Source: a virus. From it: a stretch of 21,363 nt of DNA. A program made the translations under genes and the position numbers. Every line of letters begins with the position of its first letter. Within the stretch, counting starts at the first letter, position 1. Where the stretch lies: positions 1 through 21,363 of IMG/VR virus record IMGVR_UViG_3300034167_000303; one strand, written 5' to 3'. The notes beneath the pieces are model-generated. The model saw nothing but the letters and a program-made list of their open reading frames with translations. It ran no database searches and was not told the origin of the DNA. Of this stretch, positions 2,553 to 18,433 are shown one piece after another.

Positions 2553-3116
2553 TTAATTATTGTTTGCCACTAATTTACACATCTCAATAAAATATTCTTG
2601 TGAATAAACATTTTTCATAATATTTATAGATTTATGAACCCATTGCACATTATCTAATGTATAACCTTTAGTAGAGTCTATTCTATCAAGAGAAGCTGTA
2701 GATTTTTTATTCTCAACAGCAGTGTTTTTAATAGGAAAAGTTAATTCTAATCCTGTTAAAGCACATTTTTTATCTTGTTTTAAGAAAAGTTCCCAAATAT
2801 CTTTTACTGTAATTTCTAATTGTTTTACAATATTGCTTCTTGATTTTCTACCAGAAGCAGCTCTATAAATTACATTATGAAACCAAGAAGCACTTATATC
2901 TCCTGAACCTCCCCACAAAGGACTATTCTTGCCATGTAACCTAAAACATCCACAACTAGAGTTTTCAGATCTTTCCAATGATGTACCTGTTCTTACACAA
3001 GTATTACCACAATCACATACACAATTCCATCTTGAATGTCCTTGTGGAGATTTTTCAGCTTCAGACATTACTAAAAGTTTACCAAATTTTAAGTTGTTTA
3101 AATCATGTTTTTTCAT
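2553..3116 (-). CDS. Free-standing HNH endonuclease with N-terminal zinc-binding domain
   Basis: 187 residues. Residues 6-57 form a Cys-rich domain (LKFGKLLVM, then CVCDCGNTC at 32-40 and SSCGC at 53-57), a zinc-binding module often found in phage homing-type nucleases. The HNH core follows at about 117-170: C118-A-L-T-G, then LDRIDSTKGYTLDN (143-156) and QWVHKSINIMK. The first catalytic His of a classical HNH is not obvious; D144-R-I-D, N156 and H161 are the likely metal and catalytic residues. It nicks or cuts DNA, usually to spread its own gene. It breaks the run between ribonucleotide reductase and MazG and, unlike its neighbours, has its own 49-base upstream gap with a promoter-like sequence. 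This fits a mobile insertion. Confidence 0.85.
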   Translation of the reverse strand: MKKHDLNNLKFGKLLVMSEAEKSPQGHSRWNCVCDCGNTCVRTGTSLERSENSSCGCFRLHGKNSPLWGGSGDISASWFHNVIYRAASGRKSRSNIVKQLEITVKDIWELFLKQDKKCALTGLELTFPIKNTAVENKKSTASLDRIDSTKGYTLDNVQWVHKSINIMKNVYSQEYFIEMCKLVANNN

Positions 3117-7173: not shown

Positions 7174-8109
7174 TTAAATATTTATTAGATAATTATTATT
7201 ATACTCTTCAAAAGTATAATTCCATTGATTGTTATCTATATGCCACTTAAGCCTAATCATAAGTGCATTATACTCAATCTCACCCTTATCTATCTGATTA
7301 TTAGATATCTTGTAACAATGTCTTGTAAAGAATTGTGTATCTACTACAGGCATATAACAAGAGAAAGAATATCCAGGAAATTTATGAGCAAGAGCTAACT
7401 TATAGAAAGCCATTTGTCTATAATATTTCCAGAACTCAAAACTTTCTGGAAAGAATTGTGCCCTCTTAGATGTAGTCTTTAAGTCTACAAGTACACAATA
7501 CTTCTCATCATGATTAACAATAACTCTATCCAGTCTGCTTTTACAGCTAACACCCATATGCTCAAAATAAACTTCATACTCATTGAATATTTCACAGTTA
7601 GGCCATTCTTGGAAAAGATACTTAGCACAAGCAACATGGCTATTTAAAGCTTCTATACAACCTTCTATAGTTAATTTTTGCTCTTTAGTCATAAACTGCT
7701 TACCTTCATTAAGCTCTAATTCTGCAATATACTCATAGATACTACTCTTCTTTAAAGTATTAAGTAGTGTATCATCTTTGTAGTTATTGTAGTAAGATGC
7801 TAGTCTTGATGCTTTAAGAAGTATATTATCAATATTATCTCCAAGATAAGTATCTTTAATAAGCATATATTGTGCAACTACATTACACAAGCTCTCATTA
7901 GGTTTAACTACTTCTGAAACAACAAAATCATCAGGACTCTCACAATACAGATGTAGGAGGCTTCCGTTTTCTAGACTTGGGGATGGAGGGTTTTTTTGTA
8001 TTGTTCCCTCCAGATACATCTGAAACAACTTTGGGCTTCCTCCTTGCTCTGGGTTTATCAGAGACAGACTGCTGTTGGCTATCTCCCTCCTCTCGTAATA
8101 ATTGGTCAT
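7174..8109 (-). CDS. PD-(D/E)XK nuclease (RecE/Cas4-like exonuclease family)
   Basis: 311 residues. The N-terminal pattern REIANSSLSLINPEQGGSPK followed by ENGSLLHLYCESPDDF (46-62) is typical of phage RecE/exodeoxyribonuclease VIII-like and DUF3799-type nucleases. The catalytic core shows E178 (NEYEVYF), K190-S-R192-L-D194, then VLVDLKTT (207-213) with D209 and K211, and QMAFYKLAL (232-240). These are motifs II-IV of the superfamily. It probably resects DNA ends for recombination with the nearby Sak4-like ATPase. No Cys cluster for an Fe-S site is seen, so it is not a true Cas4/AddB type. Its first 57 codons overlap the 3' end of the DUF1064 gene in another frame; the conserved N-terminus shows that 8109 is the genuine start. 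Confidence 0.85.
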   Translation of the reverse strand: MTNYYERREIANSSLSLINPEQGGSPKLFQMYLEGTIQKNPPSPSLENGSLLHLYCESPDDFVVSEVVKPNESLCNVVAQYMLIKDTYLGDNIDNILLKASRLASYYNNYKDDTLLNTLKKSSIYEYIAELELNEGKQFMTKEQKLTIEGCIEALNSHVACAKYLFQEWPNCEIFNEYEVYFEHMGVSCKSRLDRVIVNHDEKYCVLVDLKTTSKRAQFFPESFEFWKYYRQMAFYKLALAHKFPGYSFSCYMPVVDTQFFTRHCYKISNNQIDKGEIEYNALMIRLKWHIDNNQWNYTFEEYNNNYLINI

Positions 8110-8470
8110 AAATTTTCTTAATTTCTTCTACTACTTCTCTACACTGTACTTGATTTCTAGGCATAAAAAAGTTATGATCTGGAAACTTAAACTTAAATAG
8201 TTTATGCTTGATCTTAGCTTTTTCCTCAAGAAGCCCTTTAGTTTCTATAACTATCTTCTTATCAGCAAGATAGAAATCAGAAACATATTCCATCTTTCTA
8301 ATAGTCTTGTTTTGCCACTTAAAGGTAGGTTGTAACTCAAATGGTTCTTGCATCTTTAAGTTTGCAAGTAAATTCTCTTTCTCTAAAAGTTTATATAAGT
8401 AAACTTCTAGACCACTATCAAAGGTCAAGTTGTTATACTTGACCTTCTTAGTGGAATAATATTTTCTCAT
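7940..8470 (-). CDS. DUF1064-type PD-(D/E)XK endonuclease
   Basis: 176 residues. Core at 16-80: LTFDSGLEVYLYKLLE with E22, EYVSDFYLADKKIVIETKG with D65 and E76-x-K78. This is the DUF1064 arrangement of the restriction-endonuclease fold, seen in phage proteins thought to act as structure-specific or VSR-like nucleases. After about residue 125 a low-complexity, strongly basic tail follows (DKPRARRKPKVV, PKSRKRKPPTSVL) that should bind DNA. That tail is encoded entirely by the 170 bases shared with the next nuclease gene, so it may have arisen by overprinting. The gene starts with ATG at 8470, two bases after the preceding stop. Confidence 0.8.
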   Translation of the reverse strand: MRKYYSTKKVKYNNLTFDSGLEVYLYKLLEKENLLANLKMQEPFELQPTFKWQNKTIRKMEYVSDFYLADKKIVIETKGLLEEKAKIKHKLFKFKFPDHNFFMPRNQVQCREVVEEIKKIYDQLLREEGDSQQQSVSDKPRARRKPKVVSDVSGGNNTKKPSIPKSRKRKPPTSVL

Positions 8471-8472
8471 GT

Positions 8473-9057
8473 TTAAAAGGGAAGCCCTTGCAAATATATA
8501 TCTTTTTTGTAAAGAAATTTATTATTAATTTCTTTTAGTAACTCTTCTTTAAACTCTTTTCTTTGAGATAAGTTCTCAAATGAGTATAGTTTATGGAATA
8601 AGAAATATATATCTTCTATGCCCTCATGAATAATTTTAGTAGCTCTATAATTTTCATCATTAGTAGGACCTCCACCCCACTTAGCTACAAAAAATTGATC
8701 TATAATAGCAGTATTCTTATCATAAAAATCTTTAGTTATATGAAAAGTAATTACAAAAATACCATTAGCATTTCTTGATCTAATTGCATAAAATACTATA
8801 TTACCATCTAAATCTAAAATAGTATCATAGAATACATAATATGGAAAGCTATCTTTTAGATATCTTTTATTATGTGTCCCCTTCATATTATGAAATATCT
8901 TAGAAAAGATTTGCTCCATAGTAGTACTAGTCTTTCTAGCAGAGAATGGTTCATAATTAAAGATTCTCCTTATATAAGAACCATTAATCTTACTCATCTT
9001 GTTAGAATTGTAATACAAATCTAGCTTAGCTTTAATTTCATCTACTGTTGCTGCCAT
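8473..9057 (-). CDS. Protein of unknown function downstream of the E1-like gene
   Basis: 194 residues. It begins MAATVDEIKAKLDLYYNSNK; a mixed alpha/beta body follows (FPYYVFYDTILDLDGNIVFYA, IFVITFHITKDFYDK), with a GGG turn (KWGGGPTN) at about 128-134 and a helical C-terminus (SQRKEFKEELLKEINNK). No catalytic motif is obvious. Its ATG overlaps the end of the E1-like gene by 16 bases, the same close packing that holds the ubiquitin-like cassette together, so it may be a fifth member: an accessory factor, ligase or target. That is inference from position only; it could equally belong with the nucleases downstream. Confidence 0.65.
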   Translation of the reverse strand: MAATVDEIKAKLDLYYNSNKMSKINGSYIRRIFNYEPFSARKTSTTMEQIFSKIFHNMKGTHNKRYLKDSFPYYVFYDTILDLDGNIVFYAIRSRNANGIFVITFHITKDFYDKNTAIIDQFFVAKWGGGPTNDENYRATKIIHEGIEDIYFLFHKLYSFENLSQRKEFKEELLKEINNKFLYKKDIYLQGLPF

Positions 9058-9719
9058 GTTAGACCATTAAAAGTGTGAAAGAAAGGAACTTCTCTAATCT
9101 CCTCACCAATATCTTTTAGATGTTTTTGATTGGCAAGATAATTACAGAATAGTGCTACAGCTTGAGTTGCTACCATAGCTGCATAATGACCTGTCTGTTT
9201 ATAACTACAAGGCAAATCAGGTATCTCATCATCTCTTCTCAAAGAATCTAGATACATCTGTATATGCTCATCTTTATACACACAGAAGATTTGAAACTCT
9301 TCTGCTTGAAGTCTGGTATCTATAAAGATTTTCTTATCTTCATCTTTACACCATTCCTCAAAGATAAGTTTTCTAGCTTCCATATTGTCAAACATAGCAA
9401 AGCAATAAGGAGTTACCTCATTACCTTCCTCATATTTACCAAGATTATCAAGATAAGCATTAGAGTATTCCCTAATCATATTAGCAACTGCTATACCTTT
9501 AAGCTTACCCAAATCATCATACTTAAAGAACTGACAATCTAGATTAACATCTTCTACAGTATCCATCTCATAACAAAATAACTCATGCCTAAGTCTGGAG
9601 AGGAAGAAAGCTACATAGGCACCAACACCACCTAGACCCCCTAGAGTAATTTCTAGGGGAGTCTCTGTTACAAATGGTGCTGCTGAGAATCTACTGAATT
9701 CTAAGCGATTATATCTCAT
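9042..9719 (-). CDS. E1-like / ThiF-family ubiquitin-activating enzyme
   Basis: 225 residues, a minimal Rossmann-type adenylating domain. Residues 25-33 (TLGGLGGVG) form the ATP-binding glycine loop. CYEMDTVEDVNLDCQFF (49-65) is the family D-x-D-x-V-x3-N-L-x2-Q region, with D53, N59 and Q63. K72/K74 (GKLKG) and FDNMEAR (110-116) are the other nucleotide-contact motifs. C171 in LPCSYKQTGH is the best candidate for the thioester Cys. The zinc-binding CxxC pairs of MoeB/ThiF are absent. It would adenylate the C-terminus of the ubiquitin-like protein encoded upstream. The ATG overlaps the JAMM gene's TGA by 4 bases. A strong hairpin lies in its early codons (9634-9664). Confidence 0.85.
   Translation of the reverse strand: MRYNRLEFSRFSAAPFVTETPLEITLGGLGGVGAYVAFFLSRLRHELFCYEMDTVEDVNLDCQFFKYDDLGKLKGIAVANMIREYSNAYLDNLGKYEEGNEVTPYCFAMFDNMEARKLIFEEWCKDEDKKIFIDTRLQAEEFQIFCVYKDEHIQMYLDSLRRDDEIPDLPCSYKQTGHYAAMVATQAVALFCNYLANQKHLKDIGEEIREVPFFHTFNGLTWQQQ
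9634..9664 (-). repeat. Strong hairpin in the first codons of the E1-like gene
   Basis: Left arm 9634-9645, six-base loop 9646-9651, right arm 9652-9664. The 8-base core (CCCCTAGA/TCTAGGGG) is perfect and is extended by AGAC/GTCT past a single bulged base at 9660, giving a 12-pair stem. It covers codons 19-29, encoding the start of the glycine-rich ATP loop. The stem stands out in surrounding AT-rich DNA and could slow or gate translation or mark RNA processing. The coding constraint (Gly codons) may explain part of the GC richness. Confidence 0.45.
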
Positions 9720-10768
9720 GGCTTATACTTAATATATTCCTGCCACTCTCTATCAGTCATTCTAGAAATGTCCTTATTGCTTTTAGATTTACCAAAAGGA
9801 ATCTCATCTAAATCATTATTCATAGCTTCTGCATCTTCAATCATAGAATGAATAACACCTAAATTAAAAGTAAGTTGAGTCATAAACTTATGATTAGGAG
9901 ACATCTCTTCAAAGGTATTCATCAAATCAAAGATTGCTTTCTTAGCTTCTTTAGCTTTGTAATTATCTACATAGTCCATGCAAATCTTTTCTACCTCATC
10001 AAGATAAGAATCTAAATGATCTTCATTCTTAATTTCTGCAAGTACATCTTTAAGAGTAGCAATCTTAAAGTTAAGAGTACCTAAGTTGTACTGATTAAGA
10101 GATTTAATAAATGGAATTTCTTGCTGAATCTTGTAATACTTACCATGAGAAGAAGTTGCTACCGGAGTTCTAGCCCTCTTCTCAGCTTGTACTACTTCAA
10201 ACTCTTCTAAGAATTCATTATTATCTGTACTACATATAATTACAGGAAGAGAATACTCTACAATAATTCTACCATCACTGACTTCTTTCTTAGTATAGTT
10301 ACTATCCATGCCTCTATAAGAGACAGTATTAATAACCATATCAGTAGCTATTCTAGCATTGAAGTCTAACTTGTTATTAACAATAACAGATAGATGGAAG
10401 GGGAAGTTACTTATATTATCATGTAAGTGCTTATCATCTACACCTGATGGTGTGACACCCATATTGTGATGAGAGTGGATACTGAAGAACATTACAGGCC
10501 ACTTATCCTCATTATTCTCAAAGTACTCAGCTAAAGTTGTACCCCAGTCATACTCAGTATAACCAGATGTGCCTACATCTTTAAGAATGAGATCTATTAC
10601 ATGAAGTTTTAAGGTATCATTATAGATATCACCCTCAACCTTCATTACACCAACTCCACTCCACTCTATACTAGAGCATTTGGAATTCAAAAACTTGATT
10701 TTGTCCAGTACTCTGTTCTCCAGAGTTATTGGATTTTTTAAACTTTTCTTTATAATCATCAAAAACAT
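9716..10768 (-). CDS. JAB1/MPN (JAMM) metalloprotease, deubiquitinase-like
   Basis: 350 residues. A complete JAMM motif is present: E35 (IEWSGVG) and H98-S-H100-x7-S108-x2-D111 (IHSHHNMGVTPSGVD). This spacing is exactly that of zinc-dependent isopeptidases such as Rpn11 and AMSH. The MPN domain covers about residues 5-145. The remaining 200 residues include an acidic and helical C-terminal region with no known motif. Likely roles are to trim the ubiquitin-like precursor or to remove it from targets. Start: ATG at 10768 (MFLM) or 10759; homology-like sequence (IIKKSL-x-NPITLENRVL) begins at once, so the 98- or 89-base overlap with the E2-like gene is real. The next gene (E1-like) overlaps by 4 bases. 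Confidence 0.9.
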   Translation of the reverse strand: MFLMIIKKSLKNPITLENRVLDKIKFLNSKCSSIEWSGVGVMKVEGDIYNDTLKLHVIDLILKDVGTSGYTEYDWGTTLAEYFENNEDKWPVMFFSIHSHHNMGVTPSGVDDKHLHDNISNFPFHLSVIVNNKLDFNARIATDMVINTVSYRGMDSNYTKKEVSDGRIIVEYSLPVIICSTDNNEFLEEFEVVQAEKRARTPVATSSHGKYYKIQQEIPFIKSLNQYNLGTLNFKIATLKDVLAEIKNEDHLDSYLDEVEKICMDYVDNYKAKEAKKAIFDLMNTFEEMSPNHKFMTQLTFNLGVIHSMIEDAEAMNNDLDEIPFGKSKSNKDISRMTDREWQEYIKYKP

Positions 10769-11795
10769 TATTTATAAGTGAGAGGGGTGCACAATCTCTA
10801 AGAAGAGTGAGCAATAGTCCATCAATATTACTATACATCTTTCTTGAGGCTTTATAGATAGATGTAACTTTCTTATGCTTAATAAGAACATCATCAAACT
10901 TTACATATTTTTCCATAAGCTTTGTCTTATCAAGTACATCATTAGCCTCATAAGAAAACAAGTTGAAGAAATCTTTCTTTATAGCATCATAATCAATAGA
11001 TACTGCTATTTCCTCAGGAAGAGTACTAATCTTAATATAGTTATGGAAAGTATCTATAAACTTCTCATCATTATAGATAAGTTTTACAAACTCTTCCCAT
11101 TGTAGATCCATAGTTCTACCTAATTTGCTAAGAGCATAGTAATGGTCACCATGTTCTGTCTTCTGAGTAATAGTTCTATAAAAGTTTACCCAGAAAATAT
11201 CTGCATCATCCTCATTAAAGGTATCTATTTGATAATGTAAATTATCCAATGACATCTTAAGAGGAGAAGAACCTAAGCAATAGCTGCTAAAGTTACCATG
11301 TACATGAGGATGTATAAAATCAGGATTACCTGCATCTACTGTAGTTCTAAAGACATATATAGAACTTCCAACAAAATAGAAATATATATCTCTAAGTTCT
11401 ATAGGCGCTCTAGTATCATTAACTACAGTTAAGAACAACTTAGGAAAATGTATACCAAGATAATAGTTACCTTCCACCTCAGTTAATCCCATCTTGCAAA
11501 TATTAGTATCATACAACTCAGAGTTCTTAAGCTTATTGTAAACACTAATTACTTTAAACTTATTAGTATCTACTACAGCCTTATCTTTTTTGTAATATTC
11601 ATAAAGAGCAAAGTATTTATTAGTTTCTGAGTACTGATTAGTAAAACCATTAGCAATATCATTGTAATACTTGTACTTTCTGCACTGTTTAATGTACTCC
11701 TCTACATTAACATCTAAACTAAACTTAGGTTGGAGAGTTTGGGGTCTCCTAAGAAACCCCTTAATCTCCGCATATTTTTTACTTCTGAGTGGCAT
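10671..11795 (-). CDS. E2-like ubiquitin-conjugating protein (PRTRC-B/Prok-E2-like)
   Basis: 374 residues. The key segment is HPHVHGNFSSYCLG at 162-175, preceded by beta-strands (IYFYFVGSSIYVFRTT) and followed by a helical region. An HP-(N/H)-x-G...CL segment with His about 10 residues before the Cys is the signature of the E2 fold active site; here H162 and C173 are 11 apart. The family is best matched by the prokaryotic E2-like proteins of PRTRC-type cassettes. The first 100 residues and the last 150 are extra to a minimal E2 and are not recognisable. Position between a ubiquitin-like gene (17-base overlap) and the JAMM gene (98-base overlap) strongly supports the call. Without structural comparison the E2 assignment stays probable, not certain. 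Confidence 0.7.
   Translation of the reverse strand: MPLRSKKYAEIKGFLRRPQTLQPKFSLDVNVEEYIKQCRKYKYYNDIANGFTNQYSETNKYFALYEYYKKDKAVVDTNKFKVISVYNKLKNSELYDTNICKMGLTEVEGNYYLGIHFPKLFLTVVNDTRAPIELRDIYFYFVGSSIYVFRTTVDAGNPDFIHPHVHGNFSSYCLGSSPLKMSLDNLHYQIDTFNEDDADIFWVNFYRTITQKTEHGDHYYALSKLGRTMDLQWEEFVKLIYNDEKFIDTFHNYIKISTLPEEIAVSIDYDAIKKDFFNLFSYEANDVLDKTKLMEKYVKFDDVLIKHKKVTSIYKASRKMYSNIDGLLLTLLRDCAPLSLINNVFDDYKEKFKKSNNSGEQSTGQNQVFEFQML
11741..11760 (-). repeat. GC-rich hairpin near the start of the E2-like gene
   Basis: Left arm 11741-11748, four-base loop 11749-11752, right arm 11753-11760. On the minus strand it reads GGGGTTTC-TTAG-GAGACCCC, an eight-pair stem with one G-U. It lies 36-55 bases into the E2-like gene and about 20 bases past the stop codon of the ubiquitin-like gene. 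Codons used here (GGG, AGG, CCC) are rare in neighbouring genes, so the structure is not simply expected from local composition. Confidence 0.4.
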
Positions 11796-12351
11796 GCTTA
11801 GCTTCAGCTAGAGCCCTTTGGTTAAATCTTGCAGCATTAGCAGTATTTCTAATACCAAGTGCATACTCAACTTCAAAGAGTCTATCTTCAGAAGAAGGAA
11901 GAGTTACTGAAGGAGTTACAGGCCAGTTATTTGCCTCTTCAATTTCTTCATCCTCTCTCTCAGAAAGAACAGCTTCAGCATCCTTAAGCTTAGCACTCAT
12001 AATATTTACACTATCATGAGTGTAATTACCAATGATATCAATGATTTCATCATCATTATTCTCAATAGCTTCCTTTCTAAGTTCTCTTAGTTGATCTCTA
12101 AGACTGTAATACTCAGAAGGAAAAGCTGCCTTCATATCCTTAGGAGAAATAAAGACCTTTAAGTTACCCTCTGGAAGAATAGCATCAGCATGCTCCAAGG
12201 AATACAAAGCTTTACCAACAGTAACAGTCTTGTTACTGAAATCTACTGCAGGAAGAGCAGCTACTAGCTGAGAGAAAGTGCTTACCCCAGCTTCTACCTC
12301 AAATTGATTAACTTGAGAATTGTTTGTTGTTACAACAGTTACTTTACGCAT
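11779..12351 (-). CDS. Ubiquitin-like beta-grasp protein with long C-terminal extension
   Basis: 190 residues. Residues 1-70 have the beta-grasp pattern: strand VTVVTTN, strand NQFEVEAG, helix TFSQLVAALPAV, strand KTVTVGKALYSLEHADAILPEG, strand LKVFISPK. This agrees with ThiS/PRTRC-C-type and Prok_Ub-type proteins, in particular the late ADAILPEG-x-LKVFISP segment. Residues 80-190 form a helical, highly charged extension (EYYSLRDQLRELRKEAIE; EREDEEIEEANNW) that ends HATQK. There is no Gly-Gly, either at the end or near residue 75, so conjugation through a standard diglycine is not visible. It is the first gene of the cassette, with its own A/T leader, and the E2-like gene starts 17 bases before it ends. 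It may be a conjugated modifier or a structural scaffold with a ubiquitin fold. Confidence 0.75.
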   Translation of the reverse strand: MRKVTVVTTNNSQVNQFEVEAGVSTFSQLVAALPAVDFSNKTVTVGKALYSLEHADAILPEGNLKVFISPKDMKAAFPSEYYSLRDQLRELRKEAIENNDDEIIDIIGNYTHDSVNIMSAKLKDAEAVLSEREDEEIEEANNWPVTPSVTLPSSEDRLFEVEYALGIRNTANAARFNQRALAEAKHATQK

Positions 12352-12357
12352 TTTATT

Positions 12358-13302
12358 TTATAAAATTGTAGTTAATAAATCCTTTAAAAACTCATGCCCA
12401 AGGATTTGATAGGCATCAGAGAAATCTTTAATCCCCATTTCTCTGTATTCTTGGGGAAATAGTGCAATTGGAATATTGTATTTCTTTCTTATAAGTACTG
12501 CAGCTCTCTTACCAGGAGCATCATTGTCTGCAAGATACACACAATTGTACTTATTAACAAGCTTAGCAGGAGGAAGAACACTCTCCCCCTGCATAGCTAC
12601 AGCTTGTATACCAAATAATGATAAACATACTACATCCTTGTAACTTTTAGTAATAACTAAGAGCTCAGGATTGTCTATATACTCTATTCCTTGTATCCAT
12701 CTACTATTAGAGATGAATCTATACTCTTTTCTCTCAGGAAAGTAAGCCTTAATAGAGTTGTCAGCAAAAATGTATGCAAAACACATCTCACTGTCTCTCA
12801 TGCGATTTTCAAAGTCTCCATCTTTATTTTTAGTATATAAATGGGTGCATGAGTGAATATTAAATCTCTTTAAGGCATCTAAGCTTATTCCATATTGATT
12901 CCAGTATTCTAATTCCTTCTTAGAGAACTCTTTAAATTTTAATTTAATCTCAGTACTTTTTCTTGGGCACAATTCAATCAATTCACTTTTTTTATTTAAG
13001 TAAATATAAGAATCAGTACTATTGAGTTTTAAAGTATTATAAACATCCAACAGTGCTTCTTGATAACTAAGTTTCTTTAGATGCATAACCATAGCTATAG
13101 CATCACCTGAGAACTCTCCTGGTCTATTATCATAATAGCGCAGAATGTTACCATAATATTGAAATGCACATGTTGGAGATTTATCTCTCCTTAAAGGACT
13201 TACAAAGTTACCTTTGACTACTGGAATACCATAAGCTTCAAATATGCTTTCCTGTGAAAAGGTTTTATAAATGTAGTCCCTACTTAGATTAGAGACATAC
13301 AT
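12358..13302 (-). CDS. DnaG-like primase with TOPRIM domain
   Basis: 314 residues. N-terminus: NFVSPLRRDKSPTCAF (32-47) and YYDNRPGEFSGDAIAMVM (56-73) align in order with the CHC2 zinc-finger region of DnaG, but the Cys and His ligands are missing (CPFH is replaced by SPLR and no C-x2-C pair remains). The TOPRIM domain follows: VITKSYKDVVCLSLFG (216-231) and YLADNDAPGKRAA (256-268) with D259, D261 and G264. A basic residue (K219) stands where TOPRIM normally has the catalytic Glu; I recall TKS-x-KD forms from other phage primase-like proteins. It should make RNA primers for the phage polymerase, or be a related TOPRIM factor. The leader TAAATA precedes the ATG at 13302, and the gene starts 4 bases after the preceding stop. 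Confidence 0.75.
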   Translation of the reverse strand: MYVSNLSRDYIYKTFSQESIFEAYGIPVVKGNFVSPLRRDKSPTCAFQYYGNILRYYDNRPGEFSGDAIAMVMHLKKLSYQEALLDVYNTLKLNSTDSYIYLNKKSELIELCPRKSTEIKLKFKEFSKKELEYWNQYGISLDALKRFNIHSCTHLYTKNKDGDFENRMRDSEMCFAYIFADNSIKAYFPERKEYRFISNSRWIQGIEYIDNPELLVITKSYKDVVCLSLFGIQAVAMQGESVLPPAKLVNKYNCVYLADNDAPGKRAAVLIRKKYNIPIALFPQEYREMGIKDFSDAYQILGHEFLKDLLTTIL

Positions 13303-16836: not shown

Positions 16837-18015
16837 CTATATTATTATTGCTGCTCTTGTTTCTTTTTGTTTACTTCTTGTCCAACTTTCTTCTTGAGAG
16901 CCTCTTATTACTAGATTGTATAGATATGAGAGTTTATCTTTCTCATACCTAGTTACCCTATATAGACGTTGTCTATGTTGGGTACTGCTTGAAGTACTAC
17001 TTGCTATAATACCAAGTGTTACACTACTGTCATCAAAACCCTGATCTACAGACTTTGCACCAATAAGATATTGGCAATTCTTGTTTAAGAAAGATGCTAA
17101 ATTATCTTTTTTTCTTTTGGTAGTAATCTTAGAGTGATAAAGTACACTATTGGGTAGAATAGTGTGAAGATAATCACAAAAAGCAGTACTCTCAGAAAAT
17201 ATGATACACCTCTCATCAGGATGTTCAGCAATAATGTTAAGTATTTCATCATACTTATTAAAAGCATTGTACAGTATATCTTTTCTTTTCTTAAGCCATC
17301 TATTAAACTGTACTGCATGCATAGTAGCTTTACCTGCATCTAAAAACCCAGGTGCAGTTGGATGCAATCCTTGGTTTCTTCTATACAAATAAGCATCTCT
17401 ACTTGCAGGGCTTAAACATGCCATAACATCATCAAACCTGTTGTAAAATGTCTTAAAGTAGAACTCATACATCTTGTTAGCTTCAGCATACTGCTTAGCT
17501 TCACTTTCTGTTAAGTCTAACATCTTATTATATTCTATAACAGGTGCAACCCACTCATTAGCAATAGCTTCCTTCATAGAGATAGTACAAATTTCTTTGA
17601 TACCTCTCTTAGATAAAGTGTCTATATGTGCCTCAGACATAGTTGCAGATAGTCCCATAAAATACTTCCACTTGCTATTTAAAATAGCTTGGTTAAAGAC
17701 AACAGCTTCATCATTAGAATACATATGTATCTCATCTTGAATCAGAAAATCTGATTGCATAGTAGTTTTAACATATGTATTAACAACAAAGACTTGTGCC
17801 TTTACTCCCCAATCACTTAGAATCTTAGTCCACTGTTCTTGTAGAATTTGTCTAGGGACAATCACATGAATTATGGTATCTTCTGGTAGTGCTTTGCAGC
17901 ACTTGATTGCAGTAATAGTTTTGCCAAAGCTACCTACTGCAGTTAGGAGACCTACTTTATCATTGTCTTCCCACAATTTTACAATCTCAGCTTGCTTTTG
18001 ATCCTTAGTCTTCAT
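16837..18015 (-). CDS. Superfamily 2 DNA helicase
   Basis: 392 residues. Motif I is TAVGSFGKT at 25-33, motif Ia VIVPRQILQEQW (51-62), motif II DEIH at 94-97, motif III SAT at 123-125, motif V GAKSVDQGFD (319-328), and motif VI QHRQRLYRVTR at 346-356. These are the SF2 signatures, in order, of a short two-domain helicase of the UvsW/DEAD-like phage type. It would remodel branched or R-loop DNA during replication and recombination. No extra nuclease or zinc domain is present. It lies between a small HNH gene, which overlaps its start by 11 bases, and the unknown gene before the DnaB-like helicase. Confidence 0.92.
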   Translation of the reverse strand: MKTKDQKQAEIVKLWEDNDKVGLLTAVGSFGKTITAIKCCKALPEDTIIHVIVPRQILQEQWTKILSDWGVKAQVFVVNTYVKTTMQSDFLIQDEIHMYSNDEAVVFNQAILNSKWKYFMGLSATMSEAHIDTLSKRGIKEICTISMKEAIANEWVAPVIEYNKMLDLTESEAKQYAEANKMYEFYFKTFYNRFDDVMACLSPASRDAYLYRRNQGLHPTAPGFLDAGKATMHAVQFNRWLKKRKDILYNAFNKYDEILNIIAEHPDERCIIFSESTAFCDYLHTILPNSVLYHSKITTKRKKDNLASFLNKNCQYLIGAKSVDQGFDDSSVTLGIIASSTSSSTQHRQRLYRVTRYEKDKLSYLYNLVIRGSQEESWTRSKQKETRAAIII

Positions 18016-18433
18016 TCATTAAATCTCTAATCTCATCTGGATCTGGTAGTTGAGGTAATTCATCAACTTCTATTTCTTGATATAAATCCATGTATTTTTT
18101 AATGTTTCTTGAAAAAATTAAAAGTTCATTAGGAGTAGCATTAGCTTTCATGCTATTAGCAAGAGTGCTAATAACAGCTATGTTATCCTTGACATATCCT
18201 TTGTTAGGATAGATTCTATCAATGGATGGGGAGTATCTTGTACTACATATTAGGGGAACTTTTAAAATAGGACACTTTCTAGGAATGTGTATATCTTTAA
18301 GCTCAATACTAAATTCTAGCCCTTTCTTTAGTGCTCTTTTTTTAGCTAATCTAAAGAGTGTTTGCTTTACCTCAAGTACACTTTTATACTTGCTTAAAGC
18401 AATGAGCTTAATATTCTTCTTTTTACTTTTCAC
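18005..18433 (-). CDS. Small HNH-type endonuclease
   Basis: 142 residues with a GTG start at 18433; the upstream in-frame stop leaves no other choice. The core IHIPRKCPILKVPL (48-61), SPSIDRIYPNKGYVKDN (68-84) and VISTLANSMKANAT (87-100) is the pattern of free-standing phage HNH nucleases in which D72, N84 and N93 are conserved and one zinc-ligand Cys remains (C54). It has a basic N-terminus (MKSKKKNIKL) and an acidic C-terminal tail (DELPQLPDPDEIRDLMNED). Such genes are usually mobile homing endonucleases. It overlaps the SF2 helicase by 11 bases and lies 17 bases after the upstream gene, so it appears well accommodated in the operon and may instead have a replication role. Confidence 0.75.
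   Translation of the reverse strand: MKSKKKNIKLIALSKYKSVLEVKQTLFRLAKKRALKKGLEFSIELKDIHIPRKCPILKVPLICSTRYSPSIDRIYPNKGYVKDNIAVISTLANSMKANATPNELLIFSRNIKKYMDLYQEIEVDELPQLPDPDEIRDLMNED

Follow-up and report, generated by a model that had tools for sequence, protein, structure and literature searches.

A 21,363 nt stretch of viral DNA (IMG/VR record IMGVR_UViG_3300034167_000303, positions 1 to 21,363; hereafter the window, whose numbering is used for the cassette coordinates) carries five consecutive minus-strand genes that probably constitute a translationally coupled module for conjugation of a ubiquitin-like protein (Ubl), which lies at the core of the replication region in a lineage of crAss-like phages and is closest in design to the PRTRC cassettes of plasmids. 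The basis of this reading is observed: the gene set and its order, profile-level recognition of the E1 and of the JAMM protease, the predicted fold of the Ubl, invariant catalytic residues, a glycine terminus in the Ubl family, purifying selection and the replication context.

A sequence-only reading of the window had proposed four overlapping minus-strand genes at 9042-12351, in the order Ubl, E2-like protein, JAMM protease and E1. These open reading frames (ORFs) are present as claimed, with overlaps of 17, 98 and 4 bases, and both the JAMM signature (E35 plus H98-x-H100-x7-S108-x2-D111) and the loop of an adenylating enzyme (G27-G-L-G-G-V-G33) are found in the sequence. The proposed extent was too short: the unit spans 8473-12351, a translationally coupled fifth member having lain outside. 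The genes and their key sites are:

11779..12351, minus strand: Ubl gene, 190 amino acids (aa); beta-grasp domain (residues 1-76) and helical C-terminal tail (77-190)
12124..12129, minus strand: codons Ala75-Ala76 of the Ubl, at the site of the family's conserved Ser/Ala-Gly terminus
10671..11795, minus strand: E2-like gene, 374 aa; invariant Cys/His motif
11277..11312, minus strand: E2-like active-site motif H162-P-H164 ... C173 (compare HPN...C of classical E2 enzymes)
9716..10768, minus strand: JAMM/MPN+ metalloprotease gene, 350 aa, with a C-terminal extension
10436..10477, minus strand: JAMM catalytic motif H98-S-H100-x7-S108-x2-D111, invariant in the family and the site of group I introns in relatives
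9042..9719, minus strand: minimal E1 (ThiF fold) gene, 225 aa
9207..9209, minus strand: candidate catalytic Cys171 of the E1, conserved in 82 of 82 sequences
8473..9057, minus strand: fifth cassette gene (g5), 194 aa, overlapping the E1 gene by 16 bases

In the mechanism we propose, the primary product would be a Ubl precursor whose C-terminal tail, 1 to over 200 residues long, the JAMM protease would remove at residue 76. The small UBA5/ThiF-like E1 would adenylate the exposed terminus and then carry the Ubl as a thioester on Cys171, from where it would pass to Cys173 of the E2-like protein. The latter would conjugate the Ubl to lysines of its targets, perhaps helped by the fifth protein, and the JAMM protease would also reverse the modification. 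Trimming, the thioester relay, E2 activity and the existence of such targets are what we infer from the sequences; replication and nucleotide enzymes of phage or host are the favoured targets, by location only.

The gene order is fixed in a lineage of crAss-like phages

A motif scan of IMG/VR yielded 80 loci from 151 relatives. Wherever the four proteins were recognised together, in 75 of 75 distinct viral loci, they follow the order Ubl, E2-like, JAMM, E1 on one strand, so that the search for the same order proposed in the sequence-only reading was answered positively; in 68 of these 75 the E2-like gene runs into the JAMM gene. The constant order and the conservation of catalytic residues across 77 to 82 sequences place the arrangement beyond chance.

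Searches of deposited phage records with tblastn gave 78 that encode the E1 and 74 that encode the JAMM protein. The carriers are crAss001, its 24 PhiCrAssBcn relatives, DAC15/17, uncultured Steigviridae and Flavobacterium phages of the Fpv group; crAss001 and DAC15 are cultured Bacteroides phages. In crAss001 the four genes are gp79-gp76, annotated hypothetical, hypothetical, metalloprotease domain and ThiF, and across these Bacteroides and Flavobacterium phages the E1 is mostly entered as 'thiamine biosynthesis protein' or as hypothetical. Deposited annotations can mislead: the E1 gp76 of crAss001 (MH675552) appears as a thiamine biosynthesis protein, and the annotated start of the JAMM gene DAC15_89 lies too far downstream.

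Crassvirales markers were read from long relatives, as the window fragment ends short of the terminase and capsid genes. A crAss-type TerL was present in 12 and the major capsid protein in 10 of 13 long cassette-bearing genomes; of the nearest full-length relatives of the window, G003 and G004 have the terminase and G003 alone the capsid protein. Applied to 84,980 genomes of bacteria and archaea, the motif scan returned three loci, all resembling phage contigs binned with bacteria. Since crAss terminase and capsid genes co-occur with the cassette in long genomes and the bacterial matches look like phage contigs, the cassette is a core module of a lineage of crAss-like phages rather than an accessory island.

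The IMG/VR record and the cassette-bearing crAss-like relatives bear out the earlier proposal that a phage carries these genes between a primase and recombination nucleases. What had been named as its possible refutation, that the cassette is a bacterial island, such as a defence island, bordering an integrated element, can be given practically no credence. No supporting point was found for it; the flanks encode primase, Sak4, helicase, polymerase, nucleases, PhoH, ribonucleotide reductase and ThyX, the three matches in the bacterial and archaeal scan are phage contigs, and complete cultured phages show the identical context, on which ground we rejected the idea.

E1 enzyme, fifth protein and JAMM protease

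The E1 matches PHROG 15670 (1.4e-39) and the Pfam ThiF model (4.5e-5). Its profile has UBA5 as best match in the PDB (4.8e-14), MccB, ThiF and Cap2 also being recovered, and a search against plasmids gave no real match. The hallmarks of an adenylation domain (Rossmann fold, GxGGxG and catalytic Asp) are all found, and G28, G30, D53, K74 and D111 are essentially invariant.

The E1 is ThiF-sized and matches ThiF models, and pathways of cysteine/thiamine-type biosynthesis contain pairs of beta-grasp and JAMM proteins (PMC1779556). Both points would suit a sulfur carrier, in which the E1 would make a thiocarboxylate of the Ubl and the JAMM protein would release the product. We consider such a role highly improbable, because the cassette has no rhodanese, cysteine synthase or thiamine gene, the E2-like protein with its invariant Cys is always present, and the Ubl terminus is K-S-G, not G-G.

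At 88 of 93 loci the E1 gene is followed, no more than 60 bases from its end, by the start of an ORF of about 120-580 aa. Profile comparison connects the main clusters of these fifth-gene proteins with each other and gave no match to PRTRC E or F. Judging from its position, the fifth protein is possibly an adaptor or an E3-like partner.

In the JAMM family, E35 and HxHx7Sx2D are present in 77 of 77 sequences, and the profile has a weak match to CSN5 (E = 0.0015). Several relatives have the JAMM gene interrupted at the catalytic HxH codons; in three of them Rfam identifies group I introns at this point (scores 66-80; gathering score 50). Group I introns typically occupy conserved sites in important phage genes. 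Their position at the JAMM active site may thus be an independent sign of the importance of the module. The interruptions lie at L042:4687-5140, L067:4136-4348 and L081:3540-3799, and also in L051 and L020 (Fpv1). The inserts of L051, L081 and Fpv1 contain minus-strand endonuclease-like ORFs, and the deposited JAMM gene of Fpv1 is split by its insert.

The E2-like protein

Cys173 and Gly175 are each conserved in 79 of 79 E2-like sequences, as is His164 in 78 of 78. The window has HPHVHGNFSSYCLG at this motif, so that, as in E2 enzymes, an HPN-like His (here in H-x-H) precedes the candidate active-site Cys. An AlphaFold2 model (pLDDT 83) consists of a helix, a four-strand meander, the HxH...C loop and two helices; E2 enzymes have been described with the order alpha, four-strand meander, active-site loop, alpha (PMC1779556). 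The structural check that the sequence-only reading had called for on this 374-aa protein thus came out divided, with an E2-type order of elements in the model and no E2 among its Foldseek matches.

The assignment as an E2 is good but not proven: it draws partial support from the Cys/His motif, which is invariant, from the helix-4-strand-motif-helix order of the predicted model and from the place of the gene in the operon. Since Foldseek recovered no E2 and the sole profile link is weak, we call the protein E2-like and treat its fold as unproven. In this respect the earlier claim of a complete modifier pathway in a phage stands for the Ubl, the JAMM protease and the E1, and only partly for the E2, for which no E2 structure was matched.

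Several findings weigh against a working conjugation pathway. Neither Foldseek of the E2-like model nor HMMER searches of the E2-like profile recovered an E2 from the PDB, and Pfam E2 families were matched by none of 54 E2-like members. The profiles of the E2-like family and of PRTRC protein B match at the Cys motif alone (5%, E = 0.0076). The E1 family has Gly, Asn or Cys where an NxxRQ motif usually has its Arg, and the Ubl of the window lacks the terminal Gly, Ala76 taking its place.

Foldseek of the E2-like model against BFVD gave phage homologues only. Neither the E2-like protein nor the Ubl gave anything meaningful against Pfam, NCBIfam, PADLOC or PHROG models; these nulls hold across scans of 54 and 47 relatives. 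With tblastn no E2-like protein was found among phages, because the family is too divergent (13-20% identity). In the 227 kb jumbo phage PhiXhv-12 of Xanthomonas (L019:4196-7570), an E1 lies beside an 892-aa protein with IHPHMAVPSSQESHGSLCLGSF; this suggests a second, differently built phage E2-E1 pair, with no Ubl or JAMM gene recognised alongside.

The Ubl and its C-terminus

The AlphaFold2 model of the Ubl (pLDDT 88) shows beta-beta-alpha-beta-beta followed by helices. Most of the top matches that Foldseek gave for it are domains of the ubiquitin fold, among them the bacterial Ubl 8tyx, ISG15 and TtuB; their probability is close to 1.0, but their E-values are modest (about 1e-3 to 3e-2). 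The predicted fold is thus the beta-grasp, as the sequence-only reading had expected. A hidden Markov model profile of the Ubl recovered nothing from PDB sequences.

In the 76-sequence family the beta-grasp domain ends in K-[S/A]-G, with Gly in 68 of 76. Eight Ubls stop one residue past this Gly (KSG-K, KSG-F, KSG-R, AAG-H, AAG-Y), much as eukaryotic modifier precursors do, six more stop within five residues, and the remainder have tails of 21 to 217 residues. In phage cr106 (cr106_1, L015:2629-3832) an HNH endonuclease gene splits the Ubl, ending KSGKF, from a tail-like ORF. The K-[S/A]-G terminus and the short or separate tails are the pattern expected of a precursor that is trimmed after a single Gly, like UFM1 (PMC12355090), and we infer that the phage Ubl is processed in this way.

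The Ubl of the window has neither a terminal Gly-Gly nor the single Gly of its family. Exactly eight Ubls lack Gly76; all belong to the clade of the window and read K-A-A. Within this clade residues 1-76 are 96.7% identical (dN 0.034, dS 0.50; dN/dS about 0.07), the tail is 62.8% identical, and conservation breaks exactly at residue 76. Mean identity is 88% for the E1, 68% for the JAMM protease and 55% for the E2-like protein, and all catalytic residues of the three enzymes are kept. This selection pattern and the intact catalytic residues make decay unlikely. At positions that are elsewhere near-invariant the clade has fixed changes in the E1 (W16F, S34A, G62C, G135T, F161R), in the JAMM protease (G95F, and F107P next to the catalytic Ser108) and in the E2-like protein (E212K, S213T, P218H). 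Since a single ancestral branch could account for all of them, their joint occurrence is no more than suggestive.

Without a terminal glycine on its modifier, conjugation is less certain in the phage of the window than in its relatives. The clade would seem either to have adapted the pathway to an Ala-ended modifier or to have given up covalent attachment. If the latter, the Ubl would act non-covalently, like eukaryotic Hub1/UBL5, or would stay part of a 190-aa protein that is never cut, and the enzymes would be kept for another role. Ala at position 76 in eight of eight clade members, a tail with its own conserved end and the failure to find a second Ubl elsewhere in two 88-kb relatives speak for this, and yet we think it doubtful. 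The E1, E2-like and JAMM catalytic residues are all retained, the E1 is highly conserved and the Ubl domain is under strong constraint, as given above, and the break in conservation falls precisely where trimming would occur. Ubiquitin G76A can still be activated and conjugated, and resists removal.

Adaptation of a conjugation pathway can be stated in a more specific form, which we put forward tentatively and hold to be unlikely as a whole: crAss-like phages would run a complete, self-encoded Ubl conjugation in DNA replication, and the clade of the window would have co-evolved to its Ala76 modifier with matching changes next to the active sites of the E1 (G62C, G135T), the JAMM protease (F107P) and the E2-like protein (E212K, S213T, P218H). 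If this is true, the tags would be hard to remove. The natural change from Gly to Ala at the end of a modifier is a ready-made test of the purpose of the terminal residue.

Comparison with known systems

By gene order and profile comparison, the nearest bacterial relative of the phage cassette is the plasmid-borne PRTRC system (operon type 6d of Iyer et al. 2006, as interpreted here), not Bil. Seven plasmid PRTRC loci were compared, one of them (L118, NZ_OY725769.1, with C, E2 family D and ThiF) from a plasmid of the gut bacterium Parabacteroides distasonis, a member of the Bacteroidota, the phylum of these phages' hosts. Full PRTRC loci run from C, a Ubl with TKG or AKG at its end, through F, the E2-like B and the JAB protein A to ThiF; the phages have this order without F. 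In both systems a small Ubl has a conserved single terminal Gly (TKG/AKG in PRTRC, KSG in the phages), in the proportion of the phage family given above and not in the clade of the window. Profile comparison links the E1s (hhalign 98.5%) and the JAMM domains (PRTRC protein A, 61%), and found no match between the phage Ubl and PRTRC protein C.

The phage proteins nevertheless score far below the PRTRC model cut-offs: PRTRC_ThiF alone was matched, at 24 bits against an NCBI cut-off of 145. The E, F and ParB partners are not recognised in the phages, which have a distinct fifth gene after the E1, and the His of the phage E2-like protein is at the classical HPN position, whereas that of PRTRC-B is downstream (PMC1779556). 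The PRTRC-B model PF14460 matched nothing in the window or in two genomes, but the controls were silent as well. Because order and E1/JAMM profile links are shared while scores stay below cut-off, we regard the cassette as a distant cousin of PRTRC rather than a member, and it probably works in a similar way.

PRTRC genes on a gut Parabacteroides plasmid, in the phylum that hosts these phages, and the frequency with which phages copy host systems raise the question of counter-defence, in which the module would mimic or jam host Bil, Bub, PRTRC or CBASS Cap2/Cap3, for example by deconjugation or with a decoy modifier. We consider this unlikely: genes for counter-defence tend to be patchy in distribution, whereas this cascade is intact, keeps its order and belongs to the core of distant phages, and it is located in the replication block, not among accessory genes.

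The sequence-only reading had likened the cassette to both PRTRC and Bil. The first comparison holds, in gene order and in homologous E1 and JAMM proteins; the second is the poorer one and was not supported, although Bil also unites Ubl, E2, deubiquitinase and E1 within one operon. The Ubl of Bil is a tandem, ISG15-like protein. The phage Ubl is a single beta-grasp followed by helices, in contrast to this BilA, PADLOC found no Bil match on the cassette, and the setting is a phage rather than a defence island. BilD is a large two-domain E1 (PMC11354881), with an inactive and an active adenylation domain, whereas the phage E1 is a single domain of 225 aa.

Bub, likened here by description, is likewise a bacterial operon with a Ubl and an E1. 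Its Ubls include three-domain filament formers. The bacterial Ubl 8tyx, one of the Foldseek matches of the phage Ubl, is from a deubiquitinase complex. The UFM1-UBA5-UFC1 pathway resembles the phage module in its minimal single-domain E1 (UBA5 being the best PDB match) and in a modifier with a single Gly; it differs in being eukaryotic, and the phage E2-like protein is not demonstrably UFC1-like. The UFM1 protease is a cysteine protease. UBA5 is a minimal single-domain E1 whose modifier ends in a single Gly with a short precursor tail (PMC12355090). A beta-grasp domain and a JAB peptidase are also encoded by the phage genes for the lambda-type tail assembly proteins TAPI/TAPK (PMC1779556), which form a structural module lacking E1 and E2.

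The open-access literature, preprints and most subscription journals being outside its scope, did not pair crAss-like phages with a ubiquitin-like system. The papers on crAss001, on its virion and on crAss-like genomes mention neither ubiquitin nor ThiF in the main text, and a jumbo-phage survey describes no ubiquitin-like system. A phage-encoded Ubl-conjugation module that is real and conserved has apparently gone undescribed. Complete prokaryotic Ubl cascades have hitherto been known from defence operons of bacteria and from plasmid cassettes whose role is not understood; in widespread phages of gut and environmental bacteria such a cascade is a fixed part of the replication region. As both sit on replicons, the phage module may explain the long-unexplained PRTRC cassette. 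The cultured crAss001 and DAC15, whose published analyses pass over the module, offer a tractable laboratory system for the role of protein tagging in a bacterial virus.

Genomic setting

The cassette is bordered by two genes of DNA metabolism:

12358..13302, minus strand: primase-like gene directly upstream (PHROG 12622 DNA primase, 7.5e-30)
7940..8470, minus strand: endonuclease/Holliday junction resolvase gene downstream (DUF1064, 8.4e-18; PHROG 190, 4.2e-18)

Upstream of the cassette are genes for the primase, a Sak4-like ATPase, a DnaB-like helicase, an SNF2-type helicase and a DNA polymerase; downstream are those for the Holliday-junction-resolvase-type nuclease, a PD-(D/E)XK exonuclease, PhoH, ribonucleotide reductase, MazG and ThyX. 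An Rfam scan of the window gave no match, and matches in a promoter scan were not above chance level. At 7940-8109 the resolvase-like gene shares 170 bases with the exonuclease gene, which is read in a different frame. Two further ORFs, at 2553-3116 in the metabolism block and at 18005-18433 in the replication block, resemble by eye free-standing HNH-type endonucleases.

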